A stretch of DNA of 58,778 nt from Hyphomicrobiales bacterium (GTDB lineage: Bacteria; Pseudomonadota; Alphaproteobacteria; Rhizobiales; OSC116). Shown piece after piece: positions 19,447 to 43,737 of this stretch (position 1 is the first letter of the stretch; each line of letters begins with the position of its first letter). The notes under the pieces are model-generated. The model was given only the letters and a program-made list of their open reading frames with translations, was not told the origin of the DNA and searched no databases. Location: positions 1 to 58,778 of the forward strand of contig NVUH01000035.1 of NCBI GenBank assembly GCA_002401855.1, given 5' to 3'. The position numbers and the translations under genes were made by a program.

Positions 19447-19502
19447 ATTTCCCTCCCTGGAAATGGTTACATTATACTTTTTTCGTTTGGTTCTACCTTT
19501 AT

Positions 19503-21392: not shown

Positions 21393-21408
21393 GCAGCTCC
21401 TCCCATAA

Positions 21409-24040: not shown

Positions 24041-24043
24041 AAA

Positions 24044-24973: not shown

Positions 24974-24997
24974 CAAACATACTATGCAGTATGTTTG
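24974..24997. promoter_or_regulatory. TetR-type operator, site A (livH operon)
   Basis: Perfect 10-bp arms CAAACATACT (24974-24983) and AGTATGTTTG (24988-24997) are separated by 4 bases. On the minus strand TTGACA (25003-25008) and TAGTAT (24979-24984) are spaced by 18 bases, so the dyad covers the promoter of livH. The core CATACT-N4-AGTATG recurs at 28962-28979 and 39658-39673. The TetR protein at 43129-43737 is the proposed ligand-responsive repressor. Confidence 0.75.
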
Positions 24998-25041
24998 TCA
25001 TTTGTCAATTGCTAAAACACACAATATTTATGTTCATTAAT

Positions 25042-25923
25042 TCATATAAAACTGCGTATTTCTGCCGCTATTTTTTGCGATTGTTGATGGTGCAACCAAT
25101 GATCTGCCGCCTCAAGTTCCACAATCCTCACATCATCGGCCAAATCAAATATACCGTTACGGCTTTCTACCAATAGAGCGGTATCATTCTCACCCCAAAT
25201 GATCAAATGCGGCATGGCAACACGCATTTTTTGGGCATCAATCACCACCATATCTTCATCACTTAAAACCTGACCCAAAGACGGCACTTTAAGCGGGCTC
25301 GCCTTATACCAATTAATCATGGCCTCCAAACAATATTCCCGCTCCCATTCGGTTTTATAAAGCGCGGCTTTTCGGTCATCAAACCATGCGCTATCCATAT
25401 CTTGGCGCAATAAATTAATTAGTTTTTCAAAATCATCGGCAGCCAATAAATCTGCACTATCCTCGCGCCGCAACCAATTTATATATTGGCTGGCTTTGGC
25501 CTGTGCCTCCCCCTTAGCAAGCTCAGCTTGGAACGGAATCGGATGCACGCCATTTAAAATAATCAATTTCGAAATCATATTTGGCACCGCGGAGGCCACA
25601 ACATAGGCCGCCGCCGCCCCCCAATCATGCGCCAAAAGATGGATTGGTTCATCTGGCGAATAATGCGCCATCAAACCAATGACATCTTGCACCACCAATG
25701 ACATGCGATAATTTTCCACACCCCGTGGTTTGTAGGATTGCCCAAAACCCCGTAAATCTGGTGCAATGCAATAAAAGTCATCACACAAATAAGCCGCTAA
25801 CTCTTCCCACGCGCCGCCATATTCTGGAAAACCATGCAACAACATAAGCTTTGGTTTGCTGGCATCACCCCATAACCGCACAAAAAACTCATTGCCATTT
25901 ATGCTTACAAATTCACTTTCCAT
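25042..25923 (-). CDS. Alpha/beta hydrolase, epoxide hydrolase/haloalkane dehalogenase-like
   Basis: A 293-residue alpha/beta hydrolase. The oxyanion loop is HGFPE (30-34), the nucleophile is Asp100 in AHDWGAA rather than a serine, a likely acid is Asp247 in WGENDTA, and the base is His275 in ADHW. An Asp nucleophile in H-D-W-G is the pattern of soluble epoxide hydrolases and dehalogenases. It ends the five-gene operon begun at 28898, so its substrate is probably an intermediate or side product of the same acyl-CoA pathway. Confidence 0.85.
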   Translation of the reverse strand: MESEFVSINGNEFFVRLWGDASKPKLMLLHGFPEYGGAWEELAAYLCDDFYCIAPDLRGFGQSYKPRGVENYRMSLVVQDVIGLMAHYSPDEPIHLLAHDWGAAAAYVVASAVPNMISKLIILNGVHPIPFQAELAKGEAQAKASQYINWLRREDSADLLAADDFEKLINLLRQDMDSAWFDDRKAALYKTEWEREYCLEAMINWYKASPLKVPSLGQVLSDEDMVVIDAQKMRVAMPHLIIWGENDTALLVESRNGIFDLADDVRIVELEAADHWLHHQQSQKIAAEIRSFI

Positions 25924-25924
25924 A

Positions 25925-26710
25925 TTAATATTTCATGTCAGGCAAATTTAGTGAGGCGCTGTTACCGCCATCCACCGCCAAAGTCTGACCCGTTATATAA
26001 CTAGCGTCATCACTAGCCAAAAACGCCACAACCGAGGCAATCTCCGACGCATGCCCAAAACGTCGCAATTCGCACCGCGCACCAAGCCGATCTTCCTTGC
26101 CCTTGCTACGGGCATAATCAAACACTGGCTTGGTCATATTAGATTCAACCAACCCGGGGCATATGGCGTTGACCCTGATGCCGTGGCTGCCAAAATCACA
26201 AGCAGCAGTTTTGGTCATATTAATCACCGCAGCTTTCGAGGCCGAATAAGCATTGCCACCCGCCCCTGCCCTAATGCCCGCCACCGATGCCGTGTTGACA
26301 ATCGCGCCACATTTAGCCGCAATCATATAGGGCGCAACGGCATCCATAAACATCATGCCGCCATAAACATTGACCTCCATCACCCGCTTCCAATTATCAA
26401 GGCTTTGTGCGCCCATCGGCTTGGCTTCGCACACCATGCCCGCATTGTTAAACAGCACATCAATCTGCCCAAAAACCTCTACCACATGTTTAACGCATTG
26501 CTTCACCTCGGCTTCGCTGGCGATATCCACCTTATATAGCTCACTTTTTACATCATCAGACAAAGCAGCCTGTGTGGCCTTAAGACCATCCGCGTCAATA
26601 TCCACCAATGCCAAACTCGCGCCTTCCTCGGCCAACCTAATAGCGGTAGCGCGGCCTATCGCCCCACCCGCGCCTGTTACAATCGCAATTTTCCCATCAA
26701 ATCTCTGCAT
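25925..26710 (-). CDS. SDR-family NAD(P)-dependent oxidoreductase
   Basis: Classical short-chain dehydrogenase, 261 residues from the ATG at 26710. It has the nucleotide motif TGAGGAIGRA near residue 13, NNAG near 88, and the catalytic YSASK near 155. An ATG at 26740 would overlap the upstream SDR stop and adds residues atypical of the family. It could act as a 3-hydroxyacyl-CoA or hydroxysteroid-type dehydrogenase; the sequence alone does not decide. Confidence 0.88.
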   Translation of the reverse strand: MQRFDGKIAIVTGAGGAIGRATAIRLAEEGASLALVDIDADGLKATQAALSDDVKSELYKVDIASEAEVKQCVKHVVEVFGQIDVLFNNAGMVCEAKPMGAQSLDNWKRVMEVNVYGGMMFMDAVAPYMIAAKCGAIVNTASVAGIRAGAGGNAYSASKAAVINMTKTAACDFGSHGIRVNAICPGLVESNMTKPVFDYARSKGKEDRLGARCELRRFGHASEIASVVAFLASDDASYITGQTLAVDGGNSASLNLPDMKY

Positions 26711-26711
26711 A

Positions 26712-27464
26712 TTAAATCGTCTCGCCACCATCGGCCACAATCACTTGGCCCGTTACAAATGATGCCGCTTTGCTGGCAAGGAAATGCGCCACACCAGCAA
26801 TTTCATCAGGCATGCCAATCCGCCCCATTGGAGTGTCTTTCTCTTGCCTTGCCATGATTTTAGGATTCTCCCATAATGCACGGGCAAACTCAGTTTTAAT
26901 CAAACCTGGCGCGATGGCATTCACCCGTATGTTATGCCGCCCCAATTCATGGGCTAAATTACGCGCAAGCTGCGCCTCGGCAGCTTTAGACATGCCATAA
27001 GCCCCAATCACTGTATTGCCCTTAAGCGCGGTGATTGATGACATAAGAATTATAGACCCACCGCCATTTTCAATCATCACAGGCTGCACCAAATTGCTCA
27101 GCCATATAGTGCTTTGCACATTAACGCACATCACTTTTTCGAACGCACTGTCTTCAAGGCTCGACATTGGACCAAATGATGGGTTGGTGGCCGCATTACA
27201 TACCAATATATCCACCTTGCCCCATTTACTCATCGTCTCGTTGAAGAGGTTTTGCACCTGTGCTTTATCACCCACATTACACGCCACGGCAATCGCTTGC
27301 CCCCCTGCATCGCGTATGCCAGCCGCAACCTCTTCACAAGGCTCCAAATTGCGGCTCGAAATCACCACTTTTGCGCCGGCTTTGGCATATTGTTCGGCGA
27401 TCGCTTGGCCAATGCCACGTGATGAGCCTGTGATAATTGCCACTTTATCAGTTAAATCAAACAT
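26712..27464 (-). CDS. SDR-family NAD(P)-dependent oxidoreductase
   Basis: A second short-chain dehydrogenase, 250 residues, with TGSSRGIGQA near residue 12, CNAATNP near 88, catalytic Ser in LMSSIT and YGMSK near 155. The start at 27464 has GGAG at good spacing and overlaps the thioesterase stop as TAATG, which excludes the 27476 start. It differs enough from its neighbour to have a separate substrate; two SDRs in one acyl-CoA operon are compatible with stereospecific hydroxyacyl oxidation. Confidence 0.88.
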   Translation of the reverse strand: MFDLTDKVAIITGSSRGIGQAIAEQYAKAGAKVVISSRNLEPCEEVAAGIRDAGGQAIAVACNVGDKAQVQNLFNETMSKWGKVDILVCNAATNPSFGPMSSLEDSAFEKVMCVNVQSTIWLSNLVQPVMIENGGGSIILMSSITALKGNTVIGAYGMSKAAEAQLARNLAHELGRHNIRVNAIAPGLIKTEFARALWENPKIMARQEKDTPMGRIGMPDEIAGVAHFLASKAASFVTGQVIVADGGETI

Positions 27465-27916
27465 TATTTTCTCCATTCTGCAGGTGTAGGAACACCTTCT
27501 GGCAAATGACTACCTTTGCCCCATTTAAAAGTGCCAGTTGCGGTGGCAATCAAATCACCATTATCGTTTTTTATGGTGCCATTGCTGGTATAAAGCGATC
27601 GACCGCCACTAATCTGATGTGCTTCTAACCAAATGACTTTGCTTGTGGCTCGGCCAACAAAATTTGTGGTCAAAGACACCGTTAGCATGGTGCGTATATT
27701 GCCTTTAACGGTGCAATAATTACCCGCCAGGCCACAAATCATATCTAAACCAGAGGCAATCACCCCCCCATGCAAAATGCCAACGGGGTTTAAATGCCGT
27801 TCGGTCAGCTCAATCCGCGCTTTGGCATATTCTAGCGACCATTCAACAATATCAATGCCAACCAGCTTGCTAAATCCATCACCAAAAGCGTAATTTATTT
27901 GCTCTAATTCATTCAT
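27464..27916 (-). CDS. PaaI-type hotdog-fold thioesterase
   Basis: Acyl-CoA thioesterase-like protein of 150 residues with the signature LNPVGILHGGVIASGLD near residues 43-60. AGGAG six bases upstream supports the ATG at 27916; the alternative two codons earlier sits directly against that site. It overlaps the MDR reductase by 8 bases. It probably releases CoA from dead-end acyl-CoA species produced by this pathway. Confidence 0.87.
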   Translation of the reverse strand: MNELEQINYAFGDGFSKLVGIDIVEWSLEYAKARIELTERHLNPVGILHGGVIASGLDMICGLAGNYCTVKGNIRTMLTVSLTTNFVGRATSKVIWLEAHQISGGRSLYTSNGTIKNDNGDLIATATGTFKWGKGSHLPEGVPTPAEWRK

Positions 27917-28898
27917 CCGCATCTCCTGTTGTCAGCACTATTTTGCCAATGGCACGGCGCTGCTTTAAATCATTCAATGCCAAAGCCGCATCTTTAAGCG
28001 CATAAGCTTTGCTGATATGCGGGTTTAATTTACCCTGCGCATACCATTCAAACATTTGTGCAAAATTTTCATTATCCAAAGCCAATTCCTTGCCTCTAAA
28101 TGCCCCCCAAAACACCCCCACCACAGAGCAACCCTTGAGCAGCATTAAGTTGACAGGAACTTTGGGTATATCGCCCGAGGCAAAACCAACCACCAACACC
28201 CGTCCACGCCAAGCGGTCGAGCGCAATGCCAATTCAAACATGTCTCCTCCAACGGGATCGTAGACCACATCAACACCCTTGCCTTGGGTCAATGCTTTAA
28301 TGGCATCACGTAGTGGCGTGTCGGTATAATTAATCAGCTCATCAGCACCCGCCGCTTTGGCAGCAGCCAATTTTGCATCGCTACTGGCAGCAGCAATCAC
28401 CCGTGCCCCCATAAGCTTGCCCAATTCAACAGCAGCAAGGCCAACCCCGCCGCCTGCGCCGAGCACCAGCAAAGTCTCGCCCGCTTTAAGTTCTGCCCGT
28501 TGTTTTAACGCATGCATGCTTGTCCCGTAAGTCATCGCAAAGCCTGCAGCAGTTTTGCCATCCATGCCTTTAGGCCGTGGCAATAATTTCTCTTGCTCAA
28601 TCACCATTTGCTCGGCAAAGCCGCCATAAGGCACCATAGCAATCACCGATTCGCCAATGCAATCAGCCGACACGCCGTCGCCCACCGCATCAATAACCCC
28701 TGCCACCTCACCGCCGGGTGAGAATGGAAATTCTGGCTTAAATTGATACTTGCCTTCAATGATCAAAGTGTCAGGAAAGTTACAGCCACAGGCCTCTATA
28801 GCAATGCGCACCTGCCCTGCAGCAGGAGTTAAATCATCAACTTCTTTTAGAGATAGCTTTTCTGGCGGCCCAACCTCGGTGCATAAAACAGCTTTCAT
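27909..28898 (-). CDS. NADPH:quinone oxidoreductase-like MDR protein
   Basis: Zinc-free medium-chain dehydrogenase/reductase of 329 residues. The cofactor motif is GAGGGVGLAAVELGK near residue 148, and the PVGGDMFELALR segment near 245 is typical of the quinone-oxidoreductase/acyl-CoA reductase branch. GGAGG ahead of the ATG at 28898 excludes the longer start at 28934. It is the first gene of the operon to 25042 and is divergent from the FadJ gene, with operator site B between them. Confidence 0.88.
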   Translation of the reverse strand: MKAVLCTEVGPPEKLSLKEVDDLTPAAGQVRIAIEACGCNFPDTLIIEGKYQFKPEFPFSPGGEVAGVIDAVGDGVSADCIGESVIAMVPYGGFAEQMVIEQEKLLPRPKGMDGKTAAGFAMTYGTSMHALKQRAELKAGETLLVLGAGGGVGLAAVELGKLMGARVIAAASSDAKLAAAKAAGADELINYTDTPLRDAIKALTQGKGVDVVYDPVGGDMFELALRSTAWRGRVLVVGFASGDIPKVPVNLMLLKGCSVVGVFWGAFRGKELALDNENFAQMFEWYAQGKLNPHISKAYALKDAALALNDLKQRRAIGKIVLTTGDADE

Positions 28899-28947
28899 TA
28901 TGAATATCCTCCCAAATATGAAATCATTAAACATGACGGTTGACGGC

Positions 28948-28977
28948 TTGTCAATAAAACAACATACTAAGTAGTAT
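28948..28977 (+). promoter_or_regulatory. Candidate promoter of the FadJ operon
   Basis: TTGTCA (28948-28953) and TAGTAT (28972-28977) are separated by 18 bases, the same spacing and -10 hexamer as the promoter at site A. The -10 lies inside the dyad at 28962-28979. Confidence 0.5.
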
Positions 28978-28979
28978 GT
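28962..28979. promoter_or_regulatory. TetR-type operator, site B (FadJ operon and divergent MDR operon)
   Basis: Perfect 7-bp arms ACATACT (28962-28968) and AGTATGT (28973-28979) with a 4-base centre. It lies 24 bases upstream of the FadJ start and 63 bases upstream of the divergent MDR start, so one site can serve both operons. It matches sites A and C in core and spacing. Confidence 0.75.
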
Positions 28980-29003
28980 AAAAAAAATTAAGAAAGAAAA
29001 CGC

Positions 29004-31106
29004 ATGACGAATCCAGTGACATTATTGGTAAAAGACCATATTGGCATCATCACCATTGACAACCCACCGATCAACGCCTTGGGCATAGATGTGCGCAAGG
29101 GTTTAATAAATTGCATAGATGAAGCCGAAGCAAATACCGATGTAAAAGCCGTGATTATCCATGCCAATGGCCGCACATTCCCCCCGGGAGCAGACATTAA
29201 AGAATTTGGCAAACCACCGTTGGAGCCACATTTAGTGATCACTTGCAGTCATGTAGAAAATTGCAGCAAACCAGTGATTGCAGCTTTGCACGGCACGGCA
29301 TTGGGCGGCGGCTTCGAGATTGCTTTGAGCGCACATTTTCGCATCGCCATGCCCAAAACCAAATTCGGCCTACCCGAAGTTGGGTTAGGCATATTACCTG
29401 GCGCCAGTGGCACCCAACGCGTACCACGCATCACAGGTGCCGCAGCAGCTCTAGATATGATGATTTCGGGCAAACCATTCAACGCCAAAAAAGCCCTAGA
29501 TTTAGGCCTAATCGACAGAATTACCGACAATGACGATATATTAAGCGCCGCGATTGAATATGCCACAGACATCATCGCCAATAACACGCCCATCAGCCGC
29601 GTTTGTGACCGCACGGATGGTTTTGCCGATGCCGATAAATACGCCGCAGAGATTGCCGCCACCCGCGCCCAATTGGATAAAAAAGGCGGACTATTTTGCC
29701 AATATGCCATTGTAGATTGCGTTGAGACCGCCGCTAAATTGCCATTTAATGAGGGGTTGATATACGAACGCGAAAAAATCACCGCCTGCATGCAAACTGA
29801 TGAACACACAGCTTTAGTACATGTGTTTTTTGCCGAACGCAAAAGCCCCAAACCACCTGAAGCCCTACGTGCTAAACCGCTAAACATTCAGCAATTGGGC
29901 ATTGTCGGTGGCGGCACCATGGGCGCTGGCATTGCCGTTGCCGCTTTAAATGGCGGCTTAAATGTCACCTTGATTGAACGAGACGCAGACAGCATTAAAC
30001 GCGGCATTCAAAATGTCGAAAAAGTCTATTTACGCAACATCGAAAAAGGCCGCATGAATGAACAGCAAATGGCTGCGGTCATGGCGCGTTTCACGCCTTC
30101 TACTGATTATAGTGATTTATCAGGCGTCGATATGGTGATCGAAGCGGTGTTTGAGCAAATGGATGTTAAGAAAGCAGTGTTTGCAGAATTAGACAAAGTG
30201 CTAAAACCCAACGCCATTCTAGCCAGCAACACATCATATTTAGATGTCAATGAACTAGCTGCCACCACCAAACGACCTGAGAATGTGATAGGTTTGCATT
30301 TCTTCTCACCAGCCAACATCATGCGCCTACTCGAAATTGTCGTACCCGATAATGTATCCGATCAAACCGTATCGACCGCTTTCTCTTTCGCCAAACAACT
30401 TGGCAAAGTGGCGGTACGTGCGGGTGTCTGCGATGGCTTTATCGGCAACCGCATCCTCGGCAAATATGCCCAAGCCGCCACCAATATGATGGAAGATGGC
30501 GCCTCGCCATATCACATGGATAAAGTCATTCGTGGTTTCGGCTACCCAATAGGCGTTTATCAAATGTTTGATTTAGCAGGTGGTGACATTGGCTGGGACA
30601 CACGCAAACGCCTTGCCGAAACACGCGACCCCGCCGAGCGTTATGTACATGTTGATGACCGAATTTGTGAAAATGGCTGGTTTGGCCAAAAGACAGGACG
30701 TGGCTATTATATCTACGAAAATGGCGCCCGCATTGGCAAAGAAGACCCCGAAATTTTAGCCATTATCGACAAAGAGCGCAAAATTGCAGGCATCACACCC
30801 CATGATTTTAGCGAAGAAGAAATCATCGAAACCTATATGGCAGCAATGATTAACGAAGCCGCCAATGTGTTGCACGAAGGCATCGCGCTGCGGCCATCTG
30901 ACATAGATGTCACCGCAATTTATGGCTATGGCTTCCCTCGCCATAAGGGCGGCCCCATGCAATATGCAGACAGCATTGGCTTGAATAAAATACTTGCCAC
31001 CGTTGTGCGTTTAAGCGAAACTGATGCCAATTTTTGGGTGGTATCACCCCTGCTAAGACAGCTAGTGGCCGATGGTGAAAATTTTGCCAGTTTAAATAAC
31101 GTTTAA
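29004..31106 (+). CDS. fadJ: Bifunctional enoyl-CoA hydratase / 3-hydroxyacyl-CoA dehydrogenase
   Basis: Beta-oxidation fusion enzyme of 700 residues that hydrates a 2-enoyl-CoA and oxidises the 3-hydroxyacyl-CoA with NAD. The N-terminal crotonase domain (about 1-190) keeps both catalytic glutamates, Glu105 (GGGFE) and Glu125 (GLPE). The dehydrogenase domain begins near 290 with LGIVGGGTMGAGIA; HFFSPANIMRLLEIV carries the catalytic histidine, and FIGNRI follows. The C-terminal helical repeat includes YGYGFPRHKGGPM. It resembles the FadJ/peroxisomal-bifunctional type rather than the FadB complex subunit. Only a weak purine-rich ribosome-binding site is visible. Confidence 0.92.
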   Translation: MTNPVTLLVKDHIGIITIDNPPINALGIDVRKGLINCIDEAEANTDVKAVIIHANGRTFPPGADIKEFGKPPLEPHLVITCSHVENCSKPVIAALHGTALGGGFEIALSAHFRIAMPKTKFGLPEVGLGILPGASGTQRVPRITGAAAALDMMISGKPFNAKKALDLGLIDRITDNDDILSAAIEYATDIIANNTPISRVCDRTDGFADADKYAAEIAATRAQLDKKGGLFCQYAIVDCVETAAKLPFNEGLIYEREKITACMQTDEHTALVHVFFAERKSPKPPEALRAKPLNIQQLGIVGGGTMGAGIAVAALNGGLNVTLIERDADSIKRGIQNVEKVYLRNIEKGRMNEQQMAAVMARFTPSTDYSDLSGVDMVIEAVFEQMDVKKAVFAELDKVLKPNAILASNTSYLDVNELAATTKRPENVIGLHFFSPANIMRLLEIVVPDNVSDQTVSTAFSFAKQLGKVAVRAGVCDGFIGNRILGKYAQAATNMMEDGASPYHMDKVIRGFGYPIGVYQMFDLAGGDIGWDTRKRLAETRDPAERYVHVDDRICENGWFGQKTGRGYYIYENGARIGKEDPEILAIIDKERKIAGITPHDFSEEEIIETYMAAMINEAANVLHEGIALRPSDIDVTAIYGYGFPRHKGGPMQYADSIGLNKILATVVRLSETDANFWVVSPLLRQLVADGENFASLNNV

Positions 31107-31118
31107 TGGGAGTCTAAT

Positions 31119-31922
31119 ATGAAAGATTACGCCGATAGTGAGCGCCAAGGCAACTGCATTGTGGTGACCATTAACCGCCCCAAAGAGCGTAATCCCATCT
31201 CGGCCGAATTATTCGCCGAGATGAAAAAAGCACTCAAAACGGCGCAAGATGACCCAACTATCGGCGCGGTTATTCTCACTGGCGCATCGCTCGAAAACGG
31301 CCAAGGCTTTTTTTGCGCAGGCGGCAACTTAAATGATTTGGCAGCTTCCGCCGACCGCACGCCCGATGAACGGCGTGAATTATTAGAAAAATTACATAAT
31401 TTCACCCGCATGGTGCGTGACGGCGATGTACCTGTCATTGCCGCGGTCGAAGGCGAGGCAGCCGGCGCAGGTTGCTCTATTGCCCTCACCTGCGATTTTG
31501 TGGTCAGCGCCGAAGATGCCAAATTTTCTGTCGCCTATGTCAATGTCGGCCTCACCCCTGACGGCGGAGTCACCTCATTTTTAGCCGATATCCTACCGCG
31601 TCAATTGGCCAATGAAATGTGTCTACTCGGCAAACAAGTCAGCGCCCAAAGATTTTACGATTTGGGCGTGGTAAACGTGGTAACAGAAAATGGCAACGCC
31701 CTACAAGCCGCGCTAAAACTAGGCGAACGACTAGCCCAAGGCCCGCGCAACACCATTGCCACCATTAAACATTTATGCAGCGCAGCAATTTCCAATGATC
31801 TTGACGCACAATTAGAATTAGAAGCAGTCAAAATGGTCGAAGCCCAAGGCCTGCCCGAGGCCAAAGAAGGCATCGCAGCCTTCTTCGCCAAACGCAAACC
31901 AGATTATGTGAAATTACGCTGA
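31119..31922 (+). CDS. Enoyl-CoA hydratase/isomerase family protein (PaaG-like active site)
   Basis: Crotonase-fold protein of 267 residues, 12 bases after the FadJ gene. The oxyanion-hole segment FFCAGGNLNDL is intact. The first catalytic glutamate position is Ser in GAGCSIAL, and the second region reads VNVGLTPDGG, with an Asp as in PaaG and enoyl-CoA isomerases. It is therefore more likely an isomerase, or a hydratase acting on an unusual substrate, than a standard short-chain hydratase. Confidence 0.87.
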   Translation: MKDYADSERQGNCIVVTINRPKERNPISAELFAEMKKALKTAQDDPTIGAVILTGASLENGQGFFCAGGNLNDLAASADRTPDERRELLEKLHNFTRMVRDGDVPVIAAVEGEAAGAGCSIALTCDFVVSAEDAKFSVAYVNVGLTPDGGVTSFLADILPRQLANEMCLLGKQVSAQRFYDLGVVNVVTENGNALQAALKLGERLAQGPRNTIATIKHLCSAAISNDLDAQLELEAVKMVEAQGLPEAKEGIAAFFAKRKPDYVKLR

Positions 31923-31932
31923 TATTACAATA

Positions 31933-32532
31933 TTATGACCTTGGTTTTTCAAGCTGCCATGTCAAATTAGCTTTTATGGCTGGCCATTCAGAAGCGATGA
32001 CCGAATAAACCGCTGTGTCCCGAACGGTGCCATTGGCCATCACCATATGCGAGCGAAGAACGCCATCAAGCTTAGCCCCAAGCCGTTCAATTGCCCGCCG
32101 GCTCTGAACATTCATAAAATGTGTTCTGAATTCCACGCAATTGCAATCTAACGTCTCAAAAGCATGTTGCAACAATAGTAATTTACACTCGGTATTCAGT
32201 GGCGTTTTTTGAACCGATTGGCGGCACCATGTCGCCCCAATTTCAAGCCTTTTATGTTCGGCCTCAATATTCATATAGGTGGTCATCCCAACCGCCTTAC
32301 CGCTTGCTGCCTCCACAATGGCAAAAGCAAATATAGTGCCCGCTTTATGAAGACCAATGCGCCGTTCAATTTCAGCCACAACATTTTCAGGTTTAGGCAC
32401 GGCAGTATACCACAGACGGTGTAATTCACCATCCGCAGCGGCTTCAACCAAATCATCACAATGCTGCACTGAAAGTGGCACCACCGACACAGAATTACCT
32501 TTAACCGTAAAATCTTCTATCCAGACTGACAT
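31933..32532 (-). CDS. GNAT-family N-acetyltransferase (RimJ/RimL-like)
   Basis: A 199-residue acetyltransferase of the Acetyltransf_3 type. Visible features are the beta-strand GKAVGMTTYMNI, the EIGATW strand that precedes the acetyl-CoA loop, and NVQSRRAIERLGAKLDGVLR, the typical last helix and strand. Members acetylate ribosomal-protein N-termini, aminoacyl groups or small molecules; the substrate here is unknown. It is convergent with the crotonase gene and separated from the dehydrogenase operon by 62 bases, so its link to lipid catabolism is uncertain. Confidence 0.82.
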   Translation of the reverse strand: MSVWIEDFTVKGNSVSVVPLSVQHCDDLVEAAADGELHRLWYTAVPKPENVVAEIERRIGLHKAGTIFAFAIVEAASGKAVGMTTYMNIEAEHKRLEIGATWCRQSVQKTPLNTECKLLLLQHAFETLDCNCVEFRTHFMNVQSRRAIERLGAKLDGVLRSHMVMANGTVRDTAVYSVIASEWPAIKANLTWQLEKPRS

Positions 32533-32594
32533 TTGAATAACTCCGAAATGTAATTTACAAACCCAAAGCTACGCCAAGATTGTTCCGATTACAA

Positions 32595-33719: not shown

Positions 33720-33733
33720 AATCGCCTCCTTCC

Positions 33734-34927: not shown

Positions 34928-34938
34928 ATTAAATTCTC

Positions 34939-36069: not shown

Positions 36070-36071
36070 AA

Positions 36072-37250
36072 TCAACTCGGTATTTTTAAAATTGCTTTAG
36101 ATAATATTGACAACATAATTTCAGACGTACCGCCCTCAATTGAATTGCCTTTAGAGCGCAGCCATGAGCGCGGAGCTTGCGGCGCTAAATTGCCTACATC
36201 CTCCCACGTTAAAGCATCTACCCCACCGCTAGCCATTAGTAAATTTTGGCGGGTTTTGTTCAGCTCTGTGCCCAAATATTTTAGCTCGGCCGAACGCGCC
36301 CCCAACTGATTGCCCGCTCGCATATAGGCCTTGGTCATATCCATATGAGCATCAAATGCCATCTCATCAACAATAAAACCGCCAATTTCAGCACGCAATA
36401 TTGGATCATCCAATTGTCCGTCGTCATCAAGACCAATGGCATCCCGAGCCGTGCCGCACACATCATCACCGCCAAATAACAGGTCAGAACTGCCAATCAT
36501 TTCGCGTTCATGCGTCAACAGATATTTGGCAATCGTCCACCCCTCGCCGCGACCACCAATAATATTGGTTTTAGGCACCCGCACCTCATCAAAAAACGTT
36601 TCGCAAAATGGTGAAGAACCTGAAATAAGTTTGATTGGTTTGGTGCTGACACCCTTGCTTTTCATATCAAATAATAAAAACGAAATGCCTTTATGTTTGG
36701 GTTCATCTGGCTCAGTGCGCACCAAACAGAAAATCCAATCGGCTTGGTCAGCATAAGATGTCCAAACCTTTTGACCTGAGACAATAAAATCATCACCGTC
36801 ATCCACACCTTTGGTTTTTACCGAAGCCAAATCAGACCCTGCATCTGGCTCAGAATAACCTTGGCACCATCTAATCTCACCACGCGCAATTTGTGGCAAA
36901 TATAGAAGTTTTTGTTGCTCACTGCCATATTCCAACAATGCAGGCCCCAACATGCTGATACCAAAACTTTGCAATGGCGAACGGGCATTTATGTTTGTCA
37001 ATTCTTCGGCCAATATCTTTTGCTTATCACCGTTTAAACCGCCACCACCATAGGATTTCGGCCATGCGGGTACAGTCCAACCTCTTGCCGCCATATCATT
37101 CAACCAACTATGCTGTGCATTATTGATAAACACAAAATCACGCCCGCCCCAACAAATCTCGTCATCGGTGATCGGCATACGCATTTCAGGCGGGCAATGA
37201 TCGGCCAGCCATGTTTTCACTTCACTTCTAAATATTTCAACTTCGTTCAT
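36072..37250 (-). CDS. Acyl-CoA dehydrogenase, large partner of a second heteromeric pair
   Basis: A 392-residue dehydrogenase with CQGYSEPDAGSDLASVKT near residue 125 and WTSYADQAD near 160. The C-terminus GNSIEGGTSEIMLSIL has Gly where medium-chain enzymes have the catalytic Glu. The ATG at 37250 was preferred over a TTG at 37262. The order large then small repeats the arrangement of the first pair, suggesting duplication followed by specialisation for a different acyl intermediate. Confidence 0.88.
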   Translation of the reverse strand: MNEVEIFRSEVKTWLADHCPPEMRMPITDDEICWGGRDFVFINNAQHSWLNDMAARGWTVPAWPKSYGGGGLNGDKQKILAEELTNINARSPLQSFGISMLGPALLEYGSEQQKLLYLPQIARGEIRWCQGYSEPDAGSDLASVKTKGVDDGDDFIVSGQKVWTSYADQADWIFCLVRTEPDEPKHKGISFLLFDMKSKGVSTKPIKLISGSSPFCETFFDEVRVPKTNIIGGRGEGWTIAKYLLTHEREMIGSSDLLFGGDDVCGTARDAIGLDDDGQLDDPILRAEIGGFIVDEMAFDAHMDMTKAYMRAGNQLGARSAELKYLGTELNKTRQNLLMASGGVDALTWEDVGNLAPQAPRSWLRSKGNSIEGGTSEIMLSILSKAILKIPS

Positions 37251-37271
37251 AATGTCTTTCAATTAAGTCTC

Positions 37272-38324
37272 TCAATAAGTAATGATAATTTTACCATCAG
37301 TCTTTTTTGTCGCCGCAGCTAAACCTGTCACAATGTCTTTCAACGGCAACTTAGTCGCCACATCGGTAGTCCATTTTTTCGTTGCAAATCGCGTTTGCAC
37401 TTGGGTAAATACTTTTACCTTTTCCTCATAGGGCGTATCGTGCATCCAATTGACCAACCAAAACCCTTCAATCTTTTTATTCATAAATATCATCTGCCCC
37501 ATTTGTTCTATCTTCGGCGCTTCTGGGCTTAATTTGCCATAACCAACCCAACGGGTAAAGGCAGGCATGGCAGTAAAAATATCGGCCGAGATTTGGTCAC
37601 AAACTGCATCCAACATCATCCGCGGTTTAAGTGATTTCATCACCACTTGCGTTTTATCTGCAAAATCAGCATCAGCTGTCACCAACACTCCTTCTGCACC
37701 CAAGCTTTTAAGATTATCCGCAACGTCAGCCCGCCTAACCACCGCAATTGGCTTTAACCCCAAATCACGCCCCAAACCAATCATCAATTTGCCCAATTGG
37801 CTAGACGCCGCCGTGATGACAAACGCATCACCTTTTTGCTGTTCATAATGCTGCACCACCAAATCAACCATCGCCACCGCGGTTAGCGGGTTAACAATCA
37901 ATGCCGCACCATCAACATCACTCACCTCTGGCGCCAGTGGCACACATGTATTGCCATTGGTCAAAGCATATTCAGCCCATGTGCCGCTGCCATCGAGCGA
38001 AACCGCAAATGCCACCCGCTGGCCAAGCAAGCTTTTCGGCGCTTCATCACCCAAAGCCACAACAGTGCCGCAGCCTTCAAACCCAGCAGGCAAACCCTTG
38101 CGCCGTGGCTGACCATATTCACCTTTAATAAAATGTAAATCAGATGGGTTGACTGACGAAGCAATCATCTGAATCAACACTTGTTTGCCTTCTGGTTTCG
38201 GCACAGCAATGGTCGCGTCTTTAACATAATCTCCGGCATCATCAATAATCGGCCCTTCGGCTGTGCCTGAATATCCATCTTCAAGCTGTATCACTGCATG
38301 CATTTCTTCTGCTATATTTGTCAT
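37272..38324 (-). CDS. Zinc-free MDR oxidoreductase (enoyl reductase/quinone oxidoreductase-like)
   Basis: Medium-chain reductase of 350 residues with SSVNPSDLHFIKGEYG near residue 55, the GFEGCGTVVALG segment near 82, and the cofactor-binding segment ITAASSQLGKLMIGLGRD near 175, a variant of the usual Gly-rich motif. AGAGGTAG before the ATG at 38324 excludes a much longer in-frame start that would overlap the upstream gene. Embedded among acyl-CoA dehydrogenases, it may reduce an unsaturated acyl or keto intermediate. Confidence 0.86.
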   Translation of the reverse strand: MTNIAEEMHAVIQLEDGYSGTAEGPIIDDAGDYVKDATIAVPKPEGKQVLIQMIASSVNPSDLHFIKGEYGQPRRKGLPAGFEGCGTVVALGDEAPKSLLGQRVAFAVSLDGSGTWAEYALTNGNTCVPLAPEVSDVDGAALIVNPLTAVAMVDLVVQHYEQQKGDAFVITAASSQLGKLMIGLGRDLGLKPIAVVRRADVADNLKSLGAEGVLVTADADFADKTQVVMKSLKPRMMLDAVCDQISADIFTAMPAFTRWVGYGKLSPEAPKIEQMGQMIFMNKKIEGFWLVNWMHDTPYEEKVKVFTQVQTRFATKKWTTDVATKLPLKDIVTGLAAATKKTDGKIIITY

Positions 38325-38334
38325 ATTTCTACCT

Positions 38335-39579
38335 CTACCACTTTTCTTGCGAATGTTTTCTAAGTTCAGCCCGCGCCACTTGCATACGATGCACCGCATC
38401 TGGGCCATCAGCAAGGCGTAAAGTGCGCAAATGAGTCCATTGCAGCGCCAACATCGTGTCTTGCGAAACGCCCTGCCCGCCAAACATTTGAATCGCTTCA
38501 TCTGTTACTTTAAGTGCCACCCGAGGCGCCACAACTTTAATCTGGCTAATCCACGGTGCAGCGGCGCGGGCATTGCCTTGGTCCATCATCCATGCAGCTT
38601 TCAGGCACAACAACCGCGCTTGCTCAATTTCCATGCGGCATTCGGCAATAATATCATAATTCGCACCCAGTTTAATGACAGGTTTGCCAAATGCCTCACG
38701 CGCCATGCCGCGCTTGCACATCAGCTCCAACGCCATTTCTGCTTGCCCAATCGCCCGCATACAATGGTGAATCCTCCCAGGGCCTAAACGACCTTGGCTA
38801 ATCTCAAACCCGCGTCCTTCGCCCAATAATAAATTTTCAGCAGGCACGCGTACATTTTCAAATTTTATATGCAAATGCCCGTGCGGCGCGTCATCATGGC
38901 CAAACACTTGCATCGGGCGCAGCTTCATAATGCCCGCCGTTTCCGCATCCACCACAATCATCGAATGGCGCTGATGCTTGGGCGCATCGTCATCACCCGT
39001 TTTAACCATCACAATATAAACCTTACAACGAGGGTCACCCGCACCTGATGACCACCATTTTTCACCATTCAGAATATATTCATCACCATCTCGCACACAT
39101 GTCATGGCGATATTGGTCGCGTCAGATGACGCCACATCAGGCTCAGTCATCAAATAAGCCGATCTGATCTCGCCATTCAATAAGGGTTGCAACCATTGTT
39201 TTTTATGCGTCTCGTTGCCATAACGCTCCAACACTTCCATATTACCCGTGTCAGGCGCGCTGCAATTAAATATCTCGGCCGCCAACATGCATTTACCCAT
39301 TTCTTCGGCCAAATACGCATATTCGACAGTCGATAAACCATAACCACGTTCAGAATCAGTCAGCCAAAAATTCCACAACCCTGCTTTTTTGGCTTTGGTT
39401 TTGAGTGTCTGCAATATCTCTGTCTGCCGCGCGGTATGCGTCCACCTATCGCCAACATTTGTTTCGGCGTAAAATTCATCATTCAACGGCGCTATGTCGT
39501 CCCGCACCATATTGGCCACTTGCTCAACCAAATCTTGCGCCCGCTCCGTCATACCCAGAGCCATTACATTACCATTCAT
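38335..39579 (-). CDS. Acyl-CoA dehydrogenase, ACAD10/11-like
   Basis: A 414-residue dehydrogenase distinct from its neighbours. Segments such as FNCSAPDTGNMEVL, MTEPDVASSDATNI, KWWSSGAGDPRC, VFGHDDAPHGH and GPGRIHHCMRAIG match, as I recall them, the dehydrogenase half of animal ACAD10/ACAD11 and its bacterial relatives. In those systems this domain acts on 4-phosphooxy-acyl-CoA made by an APH-like kinase. Such a kinase is encoded nearby at 42060-43085. AAGGA precedes the ATG. It is the first gene of the operon to 32595, immediately behind operator site C. Confidence 0.88.
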   Translation of the reverse strand: MNGNVMALGMTERAQDLVEQVANMVRDDIAPLNDEFYAETNVGDRWTHTARQTEILQTLKTKAKKAGLWNFWLTDSERGYGLSTVEYAYLAEEMGKCMLAAEIFNCSAPDTGNMEVLERYGNETHKKQWLQPLLNGEIRSAYLMTEPDVASSDATNIAMTCVRDGDEYILNGEKWWSSGAGDPRCKVYIVMVKTGDDDAPKHQRHSMIVVDAETAGIMKLRPMQVFGHDDAPHGHLHIKFENVRVPAENLLLGEGRGFEISQGRLGPGRIHHCMRAIGQAEMALELMCKRGMAREAFGKPVIKLGANYDIIAECRMEIEQARLLCLKAAWMMDQGNARAAAPWISQIKVVAPRVALKVTDEAIQMFGGQGVSQDTMLALQWTHLRTLRLADGPDAVHRMQVARAELRKHSQEKW

Positions 39580-39657
39580 AATAAATTCCTTCAGCTACTA
39601 ATTCTTTGCTTATTCATAAAATTTCGAAATTGCTTTACACAGCATGGCTTAATCAAG

Positions 39658-39673
39658 CATACTACGGAGTATG
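39658..39673. promoter_or_regulatory. TetR-type operator, site C (dehydrogenase operon and divergent maoC operon)
   Basis: CATACT (39658-39663) and AGTATG (39668-39673) form 6-bp arms around 4 bases, the same core and spacing as sites A and B. It lies between the divergent starts at 39579 and 39705. Nearby promoter-like elements are TTTACA (39634-39639) with CATACT 18 bases later on the plus strand, and TTGACA (39675-39680) on the minus strand. Confidence 0.7.
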
Positions 39674-39704
39674 TTGTCAACCAGATCTATCAAGGAATTT
39701 ATCG

Positions 39705-40163
39705 GTGAATAAAAGCATTTCACTACCCCAATTAGAGAATCAAAACGGCCAACATGTCGGCACGTCCGATTGGATTGATGTCAACCAAACTATGATTGAT
39801 GAATTTGCCGAAGTGACGCAAGACAAACAATATATTCACATCGACCCAGTTCGCGCTGCACAAACCCCATTTGGCGGCACCATAGCACACGGGTTTTTAA
39901 CCTTGTCATTATCATCCAAAATGTCAAAATGCCTGCCAAAAGTTGAGAACAGCATTATGACGGTTAATTATGGCCTCGAAAAACTGCGCTTCATTGCAGC
40001 TGTGCCATCAGGCTCAAAAATACGCGGTCATTTTAAACAGCTAAAACTAGAACAAAAATCAGCCAATCAACGCCTCATTCATTATGAGCTGACAATCGAG
40101 ATCGAAAACCACCCAAAACCCGCCCTCATTGCAGAATTAATCACCATGATCGCACTAGCATAA
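39705..40163 (+). CDS. MaoC-family (R)-enoyl-CoA hydratase
   Basis: Hotdog-fold hydratase of 152 residues. The hydratase motif is visible as the FAEVTQDKQYIHIDPVRA segment (Asp and His) followed by FGGTIAHGFLTLSL. The GTG at 39705 has AAGGAA at correct spacing; an in-frame ATG at 39606 would put operator site C inside the coding region, so it was rejected. It starts the plus-strand operon with thiolase, phosphatase, kinase and probably TetR. Confidence 0.88.
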   Translation: MNKSISLPQLENQNGQHVGTSDWIDVNQTMIDEFAEVTQDKQYIHIDPVRAAQTPFGGTIAHGFLTLSLSSKMSKCLPKVENSIMTVNYGLEKLRFIAAVPSGSKIRGHFKQLKLEQKSANQRLIHYELTIEIENHPKPALIAELITMIALA

Positions 40164-40189
40164 TCCCTCTACCACTAAGGAAATAACCC

Positions 40190-41395
40190 ATGAGCCAAGA
40201 CATCGTAATCGTCTCCACCGCCCGCACCCCCATTGGCAAAGCCTATCGCGGTGCATTTAACGACACCGCTGCCCAAACTTTGGCAGGCCACGCAATCGAA
40301 CATGCGGTTGCCCGTGCAGGTGTTGATGGTGCAGAAATTGAAGATGTGATTATGGGCGCTGCCCTACAACAAGGCGCAACAGGCGGCAACATCGCCCGCC
40401 AAGCCGCCTTACGTGCTGGCTTGCCAACCTCAGTTTCTGGCATGTCGCTCGATCGCCAATGCGCATCTGGCCTGATGGCCATTGCGGTCGCCGCAGGGCG
40501 TATATCAGCAGGCGAAGTAGACATCGTCATTGGCGGCGGTGTAGAATCAGTATCCTTGGTACAAAATGATAAAATGAACATGTTCAGAGCTGCCGACCCG
40601 TGGCTCAAGCAAAACAAACCCGCCATCTATATGAGCATGCTAGAAACCGCCGAGATTGTCGCCGAACGTTATGGCATCAGCCGTGATGCGCAGGATGAAT
40701 ATGCCTACCAATCACAAATGCGCACAGCAAAAGCTCAAGCCGATGGCCGTTTAGATGCCGAAATCATACCCATCAGCACCAGCATGAAAGTGCAAGACCG
40801 CGAGACCAAAGAAATCAGCGATCACAAAATCACTCTCAGCAAAGATGAGGGCAATCGAGCTTCAACCACAGTCGAAAACCTCAATGGCCTAAAGCTAGTT
40901 TTCAATGACGGCCTACAAGTCAAACAAGGCAAATATATCACCGCGGGCAACGCCTCACAATTATCCGATGGCGCATCAGCTTGTGTATTGATGACCGCCA
41001 AAATGGCCGAACAACGCGGCTTAAAACCCCTAGGCTATTTCCGCGGTATATCAGTTGCAGGTTGTGAGCCAGACGAAATGGGCATTGGGCCAATTTTAGC
41101 CGTGCCAAAATTACTCGCCAAACACGGCCTAACCATTGATGACATCGGCATCTGGGAGCTAAACGAAGCCTTCGCCTCTCAAGCCCTTTATTGCCGCAAT
41201 AAGCTGGGCATTGACCCCGCTAAATTTAACGTCAATGGCGGCGCAATATCCATCGGCCACCCATACGGCATGTCAGGCGCACGCATGGCTGGCCACGTAA
41301 TGATTGAAGGCAAACGCCAAGGTGTAAAATATGGCGTCGTCACCATGTGTGTCGGCGGTGGCATGGGCGCGGCTGGCCTGTTTGAAATGGCGTAA
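40190..41395 (+). CDS. Thiolase (acetyl-CoA C-acyltransferase)
   Basis: Degradative thiolase of 401 residues, cleaving 3-ketoacyl-CoA to acetyl-CoA (or propionyl-CoA) and a shortened acyl-CoA. The nucleophile is Cys91 (DRQCASGL), with His357 (IGHPYGMSG) and Cys387 ([11 protein letters not shown]) completing the active site. It provides the last beta-oxidation step for the island. It follows maoC by 26 bases. Confidence 0.93.
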
Positions 41396-41407
41396 ACGAG
41401 GGCATTG

Positions 41408-42067
41408 ATGCAAGAAATATTATTGGTCAGGCATGGTCAGGCATCATATGGTGCACATGATTATGACAATTTATCAGAATTGGGACACCAACAAAGCTTT
41501 TGGCTGGGCGCGCACTTGCAGCAACTCGGCTTTGTGCCTTCGCTCGCTGTAGATGGCACACTCAAACGCCATGTGCAAACTCTCGACCAAGTCGCAAAAT
41601 CTCTGCACATCAGCAACCAAGCCAGCGACAAAGCCTTCAGCGAAATAAATATAAAAGCCATATTCACCGCATACCGCAATAAATATGATAACTTACCTGC
41701 TTTTGAGCAAGACACAAAATTACTGAATGCAGCTCTGCGCATGGTGCTAACCGCATGGTTTGAAGCGCGGATTAGTACAGGCGGCGAGACATGGCAAGGT
41801 TATATAATGCGCATCAACCAAGGCTTAGAGCGGTTCAAAAACCAAGGTGACAACATTTTGCTCATCACCTCAGGCGGGGCAATCGCCGCTGCTGTTGGCG
41901 CCACGCTCAACCTAGATGCCGCGACACAAGTGGCTATCTTCACCAAATTGCACAATAGCTCAGTCACCAAATTAATCCGCACCAAATCTGGCCTTGAGCT
42001 GCACAGCCTTAACAATGTCGCGCATTTAGAAACCGCAGATCGCAAAGGAGCCTTAACCTATGTCTAG
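41408..42067 (+). CDS. Histidine phosphatase family protein
   Basis: Phosphoglycerate-mutase-like phosphatase of 219 residues with the catalytic LVRHGQAS at residues 5-12 and the second histidine region reduced to ITSGGAIAAA, where members usually have a His; this may lower or change activity. The ATG at 41408 is preferred over the adjacent TTG. Its last 8 bases overlap the kinase gene, implying coupled translation with a kinase of acyl-CoA metabolism. Confidence 0.83.
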   Translation: MQEILLVRHGQASYGAHDYDNLSELGHQQSFWLGAHLQQLGFVPSLAVDGTLKRHVQTLDQVAKSLHISNQASDKAFSEINIKAIFTAYRNKYDNLPAFEQDTKLLNAALRMVLTAWFEARISTGGETWQGYIMRINQGLERFKNQGDNILLITSGGAIAAAVGATLNLDAATQVAIFTKLHNSSVTKLIRTKSGLELHSLNNVAHLETADRKGALTYV

Positions 42068-43085
42068 CAATCTTTATGATTTTGATTTGGCCGAATTAGA
42101 AACCTACCTAAATGACAACATCACTGGTTTTGGCACATTAACTAGCATGGATAAATTCTCCGACGGCCAATCTAACCCAACCTATAAGCTGCAAACGGCA
42201 AACAAAGCCTATGTATTACGTGCCAAACCGCCCGGCAAATTATTAGGCTCCGCCCATCAAGTCGACCGCGAATATCGCGTGATGAACGCCCTCGCCGCAT
42301 CAAATGTGCCCGTGCCACAAATGCATCATTTATCAACTAACGACAACCCGTTAGGGGTCATGTTCCTTGTTATGGAATTTATCGATGGCCGTATATTTTG
42401 GGATCCCGCCCTGCCCAATGCCACAAATGCCGACCGCACCGCAATTTTCAACCAGATGAATAACACCCTCGCCGCGTTGCACAGTGTCAATATAGAAGCC
42501 GCAGGCTTGGCTGATTACGGAAAGCCTGGCAATTATTTTGTCCGCCAAACAGGCCGTTGGATCAAACAATATCACGCGTCTGAGCTGGTCGCCAATCCCC
42601 AAATTGACCGCATCATCGATTGGCTCAATGACCATATGGTCGAAGATGATGGCCAAATCTCACTGGTACATGGCGATTTTCGCATCGACAACATGGTATT
42701 TAACACCGATCACCCCCAATTATTAGCCGTGCTAGATTGGGAATTATCCACTCTCGGCCATGGCCTTGCCGATTTATCTTACCAATGCATGCAATGGCGC
42801 TTGCCCGCATCCGCAGCTTTGGGCGGTTTAGGCGGGTTAGACCGTGCAGAGTTGGGCATACCTAGCGAACAAGATTATATCGGCCAATATCTCGACAAGT
42901 GCAGTCTGCCGCCGATAGACAATTGGGATTTCTATTTAATCTTTAGTATATTCAGGCTCATTGCCATTGTCCAAGGCGTCATAAAACGCAGCCAAGATGG
43001 CAATGCATCTGACCCGAAAAGCACCAACCGCATGCAAAAAGTCAGCACCCACCTTACCGAAATGGCAATTGGCTTGATAAAATAG
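42060..43085 (+). CDS. APH-family kinase, ACAD10/11 and LvaA-like
   Basis: Aminoglycoside-phosphotransferase-fold kinase of 341 residues: the catalytic loop is HGDFRIDN (Asp206, Asn211), the metal-binding motif is LDWELSTLG (Asp226), and the N-lobe has GQSNPTYKL. Family members of this shape include the kinase domain of ACAD11 and, as I recall, LvaA of the levulinate operon, which phosphorylate 4-hydroxyacyl-CoA so that the hydroxyl can be eliminated. An antibiotic-resistance role is unlikely given the operon. It overlaps the phosphatase gene by 8 bases. Confidence 0.87.
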   Translation: MSSNLYDFDLAELETYLNDNITGFGTLTSMDKFSDGQSNPTYKLQTANKAYVLRAKPPGKLLGSAHQVDREYRVMNALAASNVPVPQMHHLSTNDNPLGVMFLVMEFIDGRIFWDPALPNATNADRTAIFNQMNNTLAALHSVNIEAAGLADYGKPGNYFVRQTGRWIKQYHASELVANPQIDRIIDWLNDHMVEDDGQISLVHGDFRIDNMVFNTDHPQLLAVLDWELSTLGHGLADLSYQCMQWRLPASAALGGLGGLDRAELGIPSEQDYIGQYLDKCSLPPIDNWDFYLIFSIFRLIAIVQGVIKRSQDGNASDPKSTNRMQKVSTHLTEMAIGLIK

Positions 43086-43128
43086 CAACCATCTGCTATG
43101 TCAAGCAACAGCCAAGAATAGAGAAAAA

Positions 43129-43737
43129 ATGTTAGATAGAAAAACTTCATCAAAAACCGAGATTTTAGACGCCGCCGCCAATTGCTTTATGGAACTTGGC
43201 TCTGACGTCGCGTCAATTGATGACATTGCCCGCACATTAGGTGCCACCAAAGGTCGTATCTATCATCATTTTTCATCCAAAGGTGCGTTATTAAGCGCCG
43301 TGCGCATGCGGGCGATTATGTTTATATTGGATGAAGTAACCCCGATTGTTAATAACAGTGAAGCTCCCATCAACACTTTGCATGACATGGCTTACACTCA
43401 TGTATTAAAAATACTAGAAACCTTACCTTATCATCGGGTTGTATTGCAGCATTATCGTAAAAACGCCGCCAAATCGACCACCGATTATGAACGCAAACTC
43501 ATCTCGGAAATTGAAGCCAAGCGTCAATTATATGAAAACCTATATCGCGATATTTTAGAGCAAGGCATGAAAACTGGAGATTTCATCAAACGCGATATAT
43601 CGGTGGCTTTGCATTCAGTTTTGCTAATGCTCAACTCGCCCGTTTTTTGGTTCACCCCGCTAAAAAAGAATGAACGCAAAAACCGCGAAGAAATAGCCAA
43701 ACAATTGGCCGATATGGCTGTCGCCTGCTTACGCTAA
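43129..43737 (+). CDS. TetR/AcrR-family transcriptional regulator
   Basis: Regulator of 202 residues. The helix-turn-helix is at about residues 25-50 (ASIDDIARTLGATKGRIYHHF), and the C-terminal helical domain shows no close family signature I can name. It lies 43 bases after the kinase, in the same direction, so it is probably expressed from the site C promoter and autoregulated. The shared dyads A, B and C make it the candidate repressor of the whole island, probably released by an acyl-CoA intermediate. Confidence 0.92.
   Translation: MLDRKTSSKTEILDAAANCFMELGSDVASIDDIARTLGATKGRIYHHFSSKGALLSAVRMRAIMFILDEVTPIVNNSEAPINTLHDMAYTHVLKILETLPYHRVVLQHYRKNAAKSTTDYERKLISEIEAKRQLYENLYRDILEQGMKTGDFIKRDISVALHSVLLMLNSPVFWFTPLKKNERKNREEIAKQLADMAVACLR

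Follow-up and report, generated by a model that had tools for sequence, protein, structure and literature searches.

Three predicted operators in an acyl-CoA island

A 58,778-nucleotide contig from a Hyphomicrobiales bacterium (NVUH01000035.1 of assembly GCA_002401855.1; this whole stretch is called the window) carries a 25-kb acyl-CoA catabolic island of 25 genes (18289-43737) in five predicted operons, each downstream of one of three copies of the dyad CATACT-N4-AGTATG, the predicted operators A, B and C (Table 1). One of these genes encodes a TetR-family regulator that sits under its own operator: it is the last gene of the MaoC-thiolase-histidine phosphatase-kinase-TetR operon behind site C. 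A sequence-only reading of this DNA had proposed that the regulator and the dyads form a self-contained regulon joining uptake, activation and beta-oxidation of one substrate class. Its account of the locus stands: the three dyads lie where it placed them, with arms of 10, 7 and 6 bp; the TetR gene does close its operon; and none of the three sites falls within a gene: A is upstream of livH, B is in the gap that separates the MDR reductase gene from FadJ, and C is in the gap between the acyl-CoA dehydrogenase (ACAD) and MaoC genes if MaoC starts at a GTG near 39705. That GTG is the better start for MaoC; the listed TTG at 39606 would run through site C.

Where do the dyads fall relative to the promoters? 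At site A (minus strand, TTGACA-18-TAGTAT) and site B (plus strand, TTGTCA-18-TAGTAT) the dyad overlaps the -10 element of a predicted promoter, just as had been claimed; on the plus strand of site C, TTTACA stands 18 bases from CATACT, with TTTGCA as the -35 element in the same-genus genome G001. The 18-base spacing is kept in three genomes, this one and two of the same genus, and at A, B(+) and C(+) the dyad provides a -10-like hexamer.

Across the genome itself (3,083,653 bases in 50 contigs, 94.69% complete) the exact dyad is found three times, always inside the island, and the control, the reversed dyad pattern, not once; the genome-wide scan that the sequence-only reading had suggested thus turns up no unrelated exact site. 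The base composition of the window predicts 0.25 exact copies, and the probability of three or more is 0.002, leaving aside the clustering of all three within 15 kb. Because exact dyads are confined to the island, the regulon in this genome is the island, as far as exact sites tell. With up to two mismatches the window offers two further places, each with two mismatches, and with one mismatch allowed the genome offers 7 extra places as compared with 3 for the control, which is not clearly above background. None of these seven (L004-L010) is claimed as a target; two lie within long open reading frames (ORFs; L004 and L007) and four (L005, L008, L009 and L010) lie less than 250 bases from an ORF start, and a weak additional target may be among the latter.

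Table 1. Operators and predicted genes of the island, in window coordinates.
Feature	Position	Strand	Remarks
livK-type periplasmic binding protein	18289..19506	-	Peripla_BP_6
AMP-forming acyl-CoA synthetase, FadD11-like	19503..21470	-	
ABC transporter: livF 21409-22182, livG 22182-22946, livM 22943-24040, livH 24044-24919	21409..24919	-	
Operator A, CAAACATACT-N4-AGTATGTTTG, 10-bp perfect arms	24974..24997		upstream of livH; overlaps -10 of livH operon promoter
Alpha/beta hydrolase 25042-25923, SDR1 25925-26740, SDR2 26712-27476	operon 25042..28934	-	
Hotdog thioesterase 27464-27922, MDR reductase 1 (MDR1) 27909-28934	operon 25042..28934	-	
Operator B, ACATACT-N4-AGTATGT, 7-bp arms	28962..28979		between divergent MDR1 and FadJ operons
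FadJ-type multifunctional enzyme 29004-31106; enoyl-CoA hydratase family protein 31119-31922	29004..31922	+	
GNAT acetyltransferase	31933..32532	-	regulon membership doubtful
Two PimC/PimD-like acyl-CoA dehydrogenase pairs: 32595-33719, 33734-34927, 34939-36075, 36072-37262	32595..37262	-	
MDR-family reductase 2 (MDR2)	37272..38501	-	domain matches from about residue 85-106
Predicted ACAD11-type 4-phosphoacyl-CoA dehydrogenase	38335..39579	-	8v3u, E 4.7e-126, and residues
Operator C, CATACT-N4-AGTATG, 6-bp arms	39658..39673		between divergent ACAD and MaoC-TetR operons
MaoC hydratase (39705 to 40163); acetyl-CoA C-acyltransferase 40190-41395	39705..41395	+	
Histidine phosphatase family protein	41405..42067	+	
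Predicted ACAD11-type 4-hydroxyacyl-CoA kinase	42060..43085	+	8v3v, E 6.9e-70, and residues
TetR-family regulator, DarR-like, 202 aa	43129..43737	+	predicted repressor of A, B, C

A DarR-like regulator and its predicted operator

The 43129-43737 protein matches PF00440 and PF17932 above cut-off, and its model is all-helical with a mean predicted local distance difference test (pLDDT) score of 89.2, which places it in the TetR family. Its nearest solved relative, in both sequence and fold, is mycobacterial DarR. The DarR operator is given as ATACT-N4-AGTAT (PMC10636190), a pattern contained in all three exact island sites. In DarR, Lys44-Gly45 contact bases, and Thr43, Tyr48, Tyr49, Ser53 and Lys54 contact phosphates. 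The island TetR keeps most of these contacts (T40, K41, G42, Y45, S50 and K51), with H46 in place of Tyr49. Such DNA-contact residues are common among TetR proteins and are a weak marker when taken alone.

Is the dyad associated with the regulator or with the enzymes? Sixty-one relatives were scanned for the dyad, for the TetR and for an ACAD11-type dehydrogenase (E<=1e-100). Exact dyads occur in six of them (G000, G001, G005, G002, G024 and G013) and the control in one; the dehydrogenase occurs in 23, and not one of the 17 relatives that have it but lack a close TetR carries an exact dyad. In these relatives the dyad tracks the TetR regulator rather than the ACAD11 enzyme. Within the genus, TetR orthologues are present in two of five genomes, G005 (94%), where all three dyads are exact, and G001 (67%), where B and C are exact and A has one mismatch; in these orthologous loci the TetR gene and the dyads have been retained together, the outcome of the footprinting that had been proposed. 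Neither an orthologue nor an exact dyad was found in G003 and G004 of the same genus. G002 (71% complete; TetR not found) has two exact dyads 3985 bases apart, the A-B distance in the window, which flank the FadJ, MDR1-to-hydrolase and livH-to-livK genes on a contig that stops at FadJ, before site C.

In G024, from a distant family of the order, an exact dyad (L046:10967) accompanies a 32% TetR relative and stands beside a PimC/D-MaoC-thiolase-kinase run; this dyad beside pathway genes suggests that the link between regulator, operator and pathway is old.

Beyond the genus, a protein search with the TetR gave 114 proteins at E<=1e-10 (query included), one of them, a 79% match, labelled OCS116 cluster bacterium; the host of the island is probably marine. 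The best 80 of 190 TetR relatives in a species-genome scan were examined with up to 10 kb of DNA on either side. These 80 loci contain 29 exact and 42 one-mismatch dyads; permuted arms give means of 0.08 (maximum 2) and 1.5 (maximum 23), respectively. In 61 of the 80 loci a dyad with at most one mismatch is found no more than 1 kb upstream of the TetR gene (permuted mean 0.02, maximum 1), and in 69 one occurs anywhere in the DNA examined (permuted mean 1.5, maximum 23). When spacings of 0-10 were tried, 6-base arms matched at a spacing of 4 alone, and 5-base arms gave one match at a spacing of 3. The half-site varies by clade: CATACT in Shimia, CAGACT in Phaeobacter relatives, CATACC in many rhizobia and CATTCT in Sulfitobacter. 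Loci of the Sulfitobacter-type clade (L100, L102, L104, L110, L116, L126 and L127) have CATTCT- or CATTCC-type variants upstream of the TetR gene. On plasmids, 102 records match the TetR, all below 60% identity (best listed, Sulfitobacter, 38.7%), and the viral contigs searched have no TetR relative.

Dyad sites away from the regulator gene

Since the genomes for the exact-dyad scans were chosen for an exact dyad at the TetR locus (with G001 and G005 added as same-genus kin) and those for a 21-genome rhizobial scan for a CATACY/RGTATG dyad there, a site at that locus carries no weight here, and what counts is how many other sites there are and where they lie. An off-locus exact site is present in 3 of the 18 exact-scan genomes (G072, G073 and G075), in each case as the sole other exact dyad, on another contig and ahead of a FadJ-ligase-thiolase-PimC-PimD run. 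The 21 further rhizobial genomes were searched with CATACYNNNNRGTATG, a pattern fixed beforehand from the TetR loci. Eighteen of them contain two sites and the other 3 contain three, with 2 control matches over the whole set. The 27 off-locus sites in these 24 genomes head a hydrolase-FadJ operon in 20 cases, an SDR-ACAD11-kinase operon in 4 (L181, L189, L194 and L198) and neither in 3; 24 of 25 rhizobial genomes have a further site upstream of genes related to the rest of the island. The four kinase-operon sites belong to the genomes of L101, L113, L119 and L124, whose TetR loci have no kinase gene; the L096 and L108 TetR loci also have none, and the contigs end there. In all 20 hydrolase-FadJ cases an alpha/beta hydrolase gene (e.g., L147:9982-10836) lies directly behind the site, and FadJ begins 0.8 to 1.1 kb from it. 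This parallels the hydrolase under site B, an enzyme that possibly acts in the pathway as a lactonase, esterase or thioesterase.

A 15-genome scan (G074 plus 14 genomes of Shimia, Antarcticimicrobium, Pseudovibrio, Thalassobacter and others; one control match) places the sites of the 14 non-rhizobial genomes at the TetR locus or nearby on its contig, Pseudovibrio G069 excepted; in G076 the two sites are at its two TetR loci.

A split ACAD11 and the predicted pathway

The kinase of the island corresponds to the N-terminal half of ACAD11 and the dehydrogenase to its C-terminal half (Table 1); site C divides the two halves. According to an ACAD11 paper (PMC12440821), R626, H634 and R637 of the HCMR helix, together with D753, are tied to the 4-phospho group and catalysis, the three helix residues are not found in conventional ACADs, and the kinase is of APH3 type with D220 and N225 as catalytic residues. 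The island dehydrogenase has R264, H272, R275 and D391 at the positions of mouse ACAD11 R626, H634, R637 and D753, and the kinase has D206 and N211 at those of D220 and N225. All six hallmark residues are kept, and 4-hydroxyacyl-CoA catabolism is therefore predicted, with 4-hydroxy fatty acids as the predicted substrates; the exact substrate may be a 4-hydroxy acid, a gamma-lactone or a 4-oxo acid. Among the 80 TetR loci the dehydrogenase is found in 33, the kinase in 28, and livH and livK in 53 each, and the string GRLGPGRxHHCMR is present in 32.

The hallmarks of both activities link the island to the mammalian 4-hydroxy acid catabolism of ACAD10/ACAD11 and to LvaA and LvaC of Pseudomonas putida, described as the bacterial pair for 4-hydroxy acid catabolism (PMC11342911), whose kinase and ACAD genes are separate, as in the island. 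Unlike the Lva system, the island adds the liv transporter, PimC/D pairs, FadJ, MaoC and a phosphatase as neighbours, and its regulator is a TetR protein; the Lva regulator is named LvaR in a levulinic acid paper (PMC10164729).

Model and alternatives

Together, these data make it probable that the DarR-like TetR represses all five island operons, its own included, through the three operators and is released by an accumulating acyl-CoA of the pathway, with 4-hydroxy-acid degradation to follow. A TetR dimer would bind the dyad through its recognition helix (T40-K41-G42...Y45) and block RNA polymerase at the -10 element; a CoA thioester of the pathway, not cyclic di-AMP (c-di-AMP), would release it. 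The liv transporter would import the acid, the FadD-like ligase would form the CoA ester, the kinase would phosphorylate the 4-hydroxyl, and the ACAD11-type dehydrogenase would eliminate the phosphate to give a 2-enoyl-CoA, leaving the FadJ, MaoC, thiolase and PimC/D enzymes to finish beta-oxidation. The sites acting in trans in rhizobia and the negative control in the 61 relatives support the original regulon proposal in outline; its “self-contained” character holds in this genome but neither in rhizobia, where the regulon is split over contigs, nor in nine roseobacters, where the ACAD11 dehydrogenase lies outside it.

A wider proposal, whose standing is just a little better than even, sees here a dedicated ACAD11-type hydroxy-acid switch: an alphaproteobacterial DarR lineage would have kept the DNA code exactly and swapped its input to a pathway acyl-CoA, so that one operator joins uptake, activation and beta-oxidation, in one island or split as in rhizobia, with a reduced transporter-ligase version in roseobacters.

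Several observations weigh against these readings. (i) At the promoters, no convincing -35 element was found for minus-strand transcription from B or C. (ii) One-mismatch counts over whole genomes are near the control (10 vs. 3 in this genome; 42 vs. 29 over 12 genomes). (iii) The pairing of dyad and regulator is imperfect: the single exact dyad of G013 comes with neither a close TetR nor a detected island gene and is put down to chance; of the three distant TetRs of the order (31-33%), those in G032 and G059 come with a one-mismatch and only a two-mismatch variant, respectively; and 11 of the 80 loci have no dyad at one mismatch or fewer in the DNA examined, five of them with a two-mismatch variant near the TetR gene (L050, L056, L061, L104 and L126) and six with no variant there (L071, L073, L074, L076, L087 and L103). 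(iv) Some sites and genes do not match: the Sulfitobacter-type clade (35-38% identity) has operator variants but almost none of the island genes beside its TetR; 3 of the 27 rhizobial off-locus sites (L182, L185 and L196) are unrelated to the island gene set, and G069 has two extra sites off its TetR-locus contigs (C53:475949 and C76:176647), these five being chance or further targets; and the 25th rhizobial genome, G074, has the TetR-locus site alone with either pattern. (v) All nine roseobacter genomes in which an ACAD11 dehydrogenase was detected (L241-L249; 74-77% identity) have it away from the TetR gene, with no dyad at two or fewer mismatches in the surrounding 3-4 kb, so the operator-ACAD11 link is not general. 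Eight of the nine (all but G100), searched genome-wide, have sites at their TetR loci only; G070 and G071 have no ACAD11 dehydrogenase at E<=1e-100. An ACAD11 pair within the regulon in all clades is ruled out by these nine genomes and by G074, and the roseobacter regulon is mainly transporter and ligase. (vi) The PimC/D pairs look like dicarboxylyl- and steroid-side-chain enzymes, and the breakdown of a plain 4-hydroxy acid would not obviously call for these.

If so, might the island serve another acid altogether? Operator and TetR would still be paired, but the main substrate of the liv, ligase and PimC/D proteins would be different, such as a dicarboxylic acid or the side chain of a steroid or terpenoid, and the ACAD11 pair would be accessory in some lineages. 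Two PimC/PimD-like pairs in one island fit this idea, as do the nearest PDB chains of the one member searched, Tcur3483 and 4x28, entries with a steroid-side-chain role. Roseobacter loci fit it too: the TetR gene adjoins livHMGF-FadD-livK, and in Shimia also PimC/D, with the ACAD11 dehydrogenase elsewhere and no dyad beside it. On the other hand, the six hallmark residues are kept, the island genes scanned include none recognisable as serving ring degradation, and the ACAD11 pair does stand at the TetR locus or at another dyad in the genus of the window (G000, G001 and G005), several Pseudovibrio and rhizobia; another main substrate is a tentative reading, not an expected one.

Still less probable is a true DarR orthologue, which would put the island under second-messenger control by c-di-AMP or cyclic AMP (cAMP). 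No other solved protein is closer than DarR, with which the operator is shared; of the cyclic-adenine pocket, Trp177 is conserved as W174 (all 26 of the aligned TetRs have it) and D159 is also present. Other pocket residues differ: Q184 is N181, R165 is H162 and L192 is isoleucine, and among the 26 TetRs glutamine occupies position 181 in three and arginine occupies position 162 in none. Furthermore, no diadenylate cyclase domain (PF02457) was detected in any of 11 genomes searched; a control was detected in 11 of 14. The cAMP enzymes were not searched for. With these pocket residues replaced and no cyclase domain detected in these 11 genomes, assignment as a c-di-AMP/cAMP-sensing orthologue was rejected, and the regulator is classed as DarR-like, not DarR.

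It is very improbable that a different regulator binds the dyad beside a TetR that is a mere neighbour, or that the repeats are chance or mobile (an option rejected here): the genome does have five other, weak TetR matches and G002 has the dyad with no orthologue found, but G002 is incomplete and its contig ends before site C, the dyad tracks the TetR across relatives and stands upstream of it in most species loci, it matches the operator given for the nearest solved relative (PMC10636190), exact copies are confined to the island, permuted-arm controls are near zero upstream of the TetR gene, and each of the three sites is flanked by different bases, unlike copies of a mobile repeat.

Relation to known regulators

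With repression by the DarR-like TetR as the preferred model, how does the circuit compare with others? DarR of Mycolicibacterium and Rhodococcus, a TetR-family protein whose DNA binding is enhanced when it binds c-di-AMP or cAMP, shares the operator code; the island protein differs from it in its alphaproteobacterial host, in its pocket and in the lack of a diadenylate cyclase in the genomes searched. DarR targets include transporter, cspA and fatty acid synthesis genes (PMC10636190), whereas the island TetR has a predicted catabolic acyl-CoA regulon. The acyl-CoA-responsive TetR repressors AibR, Bacillus FadR, KstR2 and PfmR are less similar to the island TetR than DarR is. A similar layout is that of PA3973 of Pseudomonas aeruginosa, a TetR repressor of an ACAD-thioesterase operon with a palindrome over its own -10 element (PMC9736018); it differs in its motif, SAAGRNMTGAACG, its more than 300 sites and its AidB-like ACAD. 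The circuit is of an ordinary kind, a TetR repressor with a catabolic regulon, but of unusual identity, with a DarR DNA code apparently lacking the second messenger and an ACAD11-type pair in the island.

Among the open-access literature matches listed, with most subscription papers outside the scope, no description was found of this regulator or of an ACAD11/Lva route under a TetR protein. This TetR subfamily gains, from sequence alone and with checks in trans, a predicted operator, regulon and pathway, and the DarR relationship and the split ACAD11 are additions to the sequence-only reading. The DarR operator code in a lineage where no c-di-AMP synthase was found makes the first signal of DarR-type proteins a directly testable question, and the system offers a means of recognising bacteria that use the recently described 4-hydroxy-acid route, and perhaps a part for biosensors.

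Other features of the island

The GNAT gene has no counterpart at the related loci searched, and its membership of the regulon is therefore doubtful. The start listed for MDR2 is probably too early, as the gene would then share 167 bases with the ACAD gene. The histidine phosphatase stands between the thiolase and the ACAD11-type kinase, and it may undo or salvage a phospho-intermediate of the same pathway.

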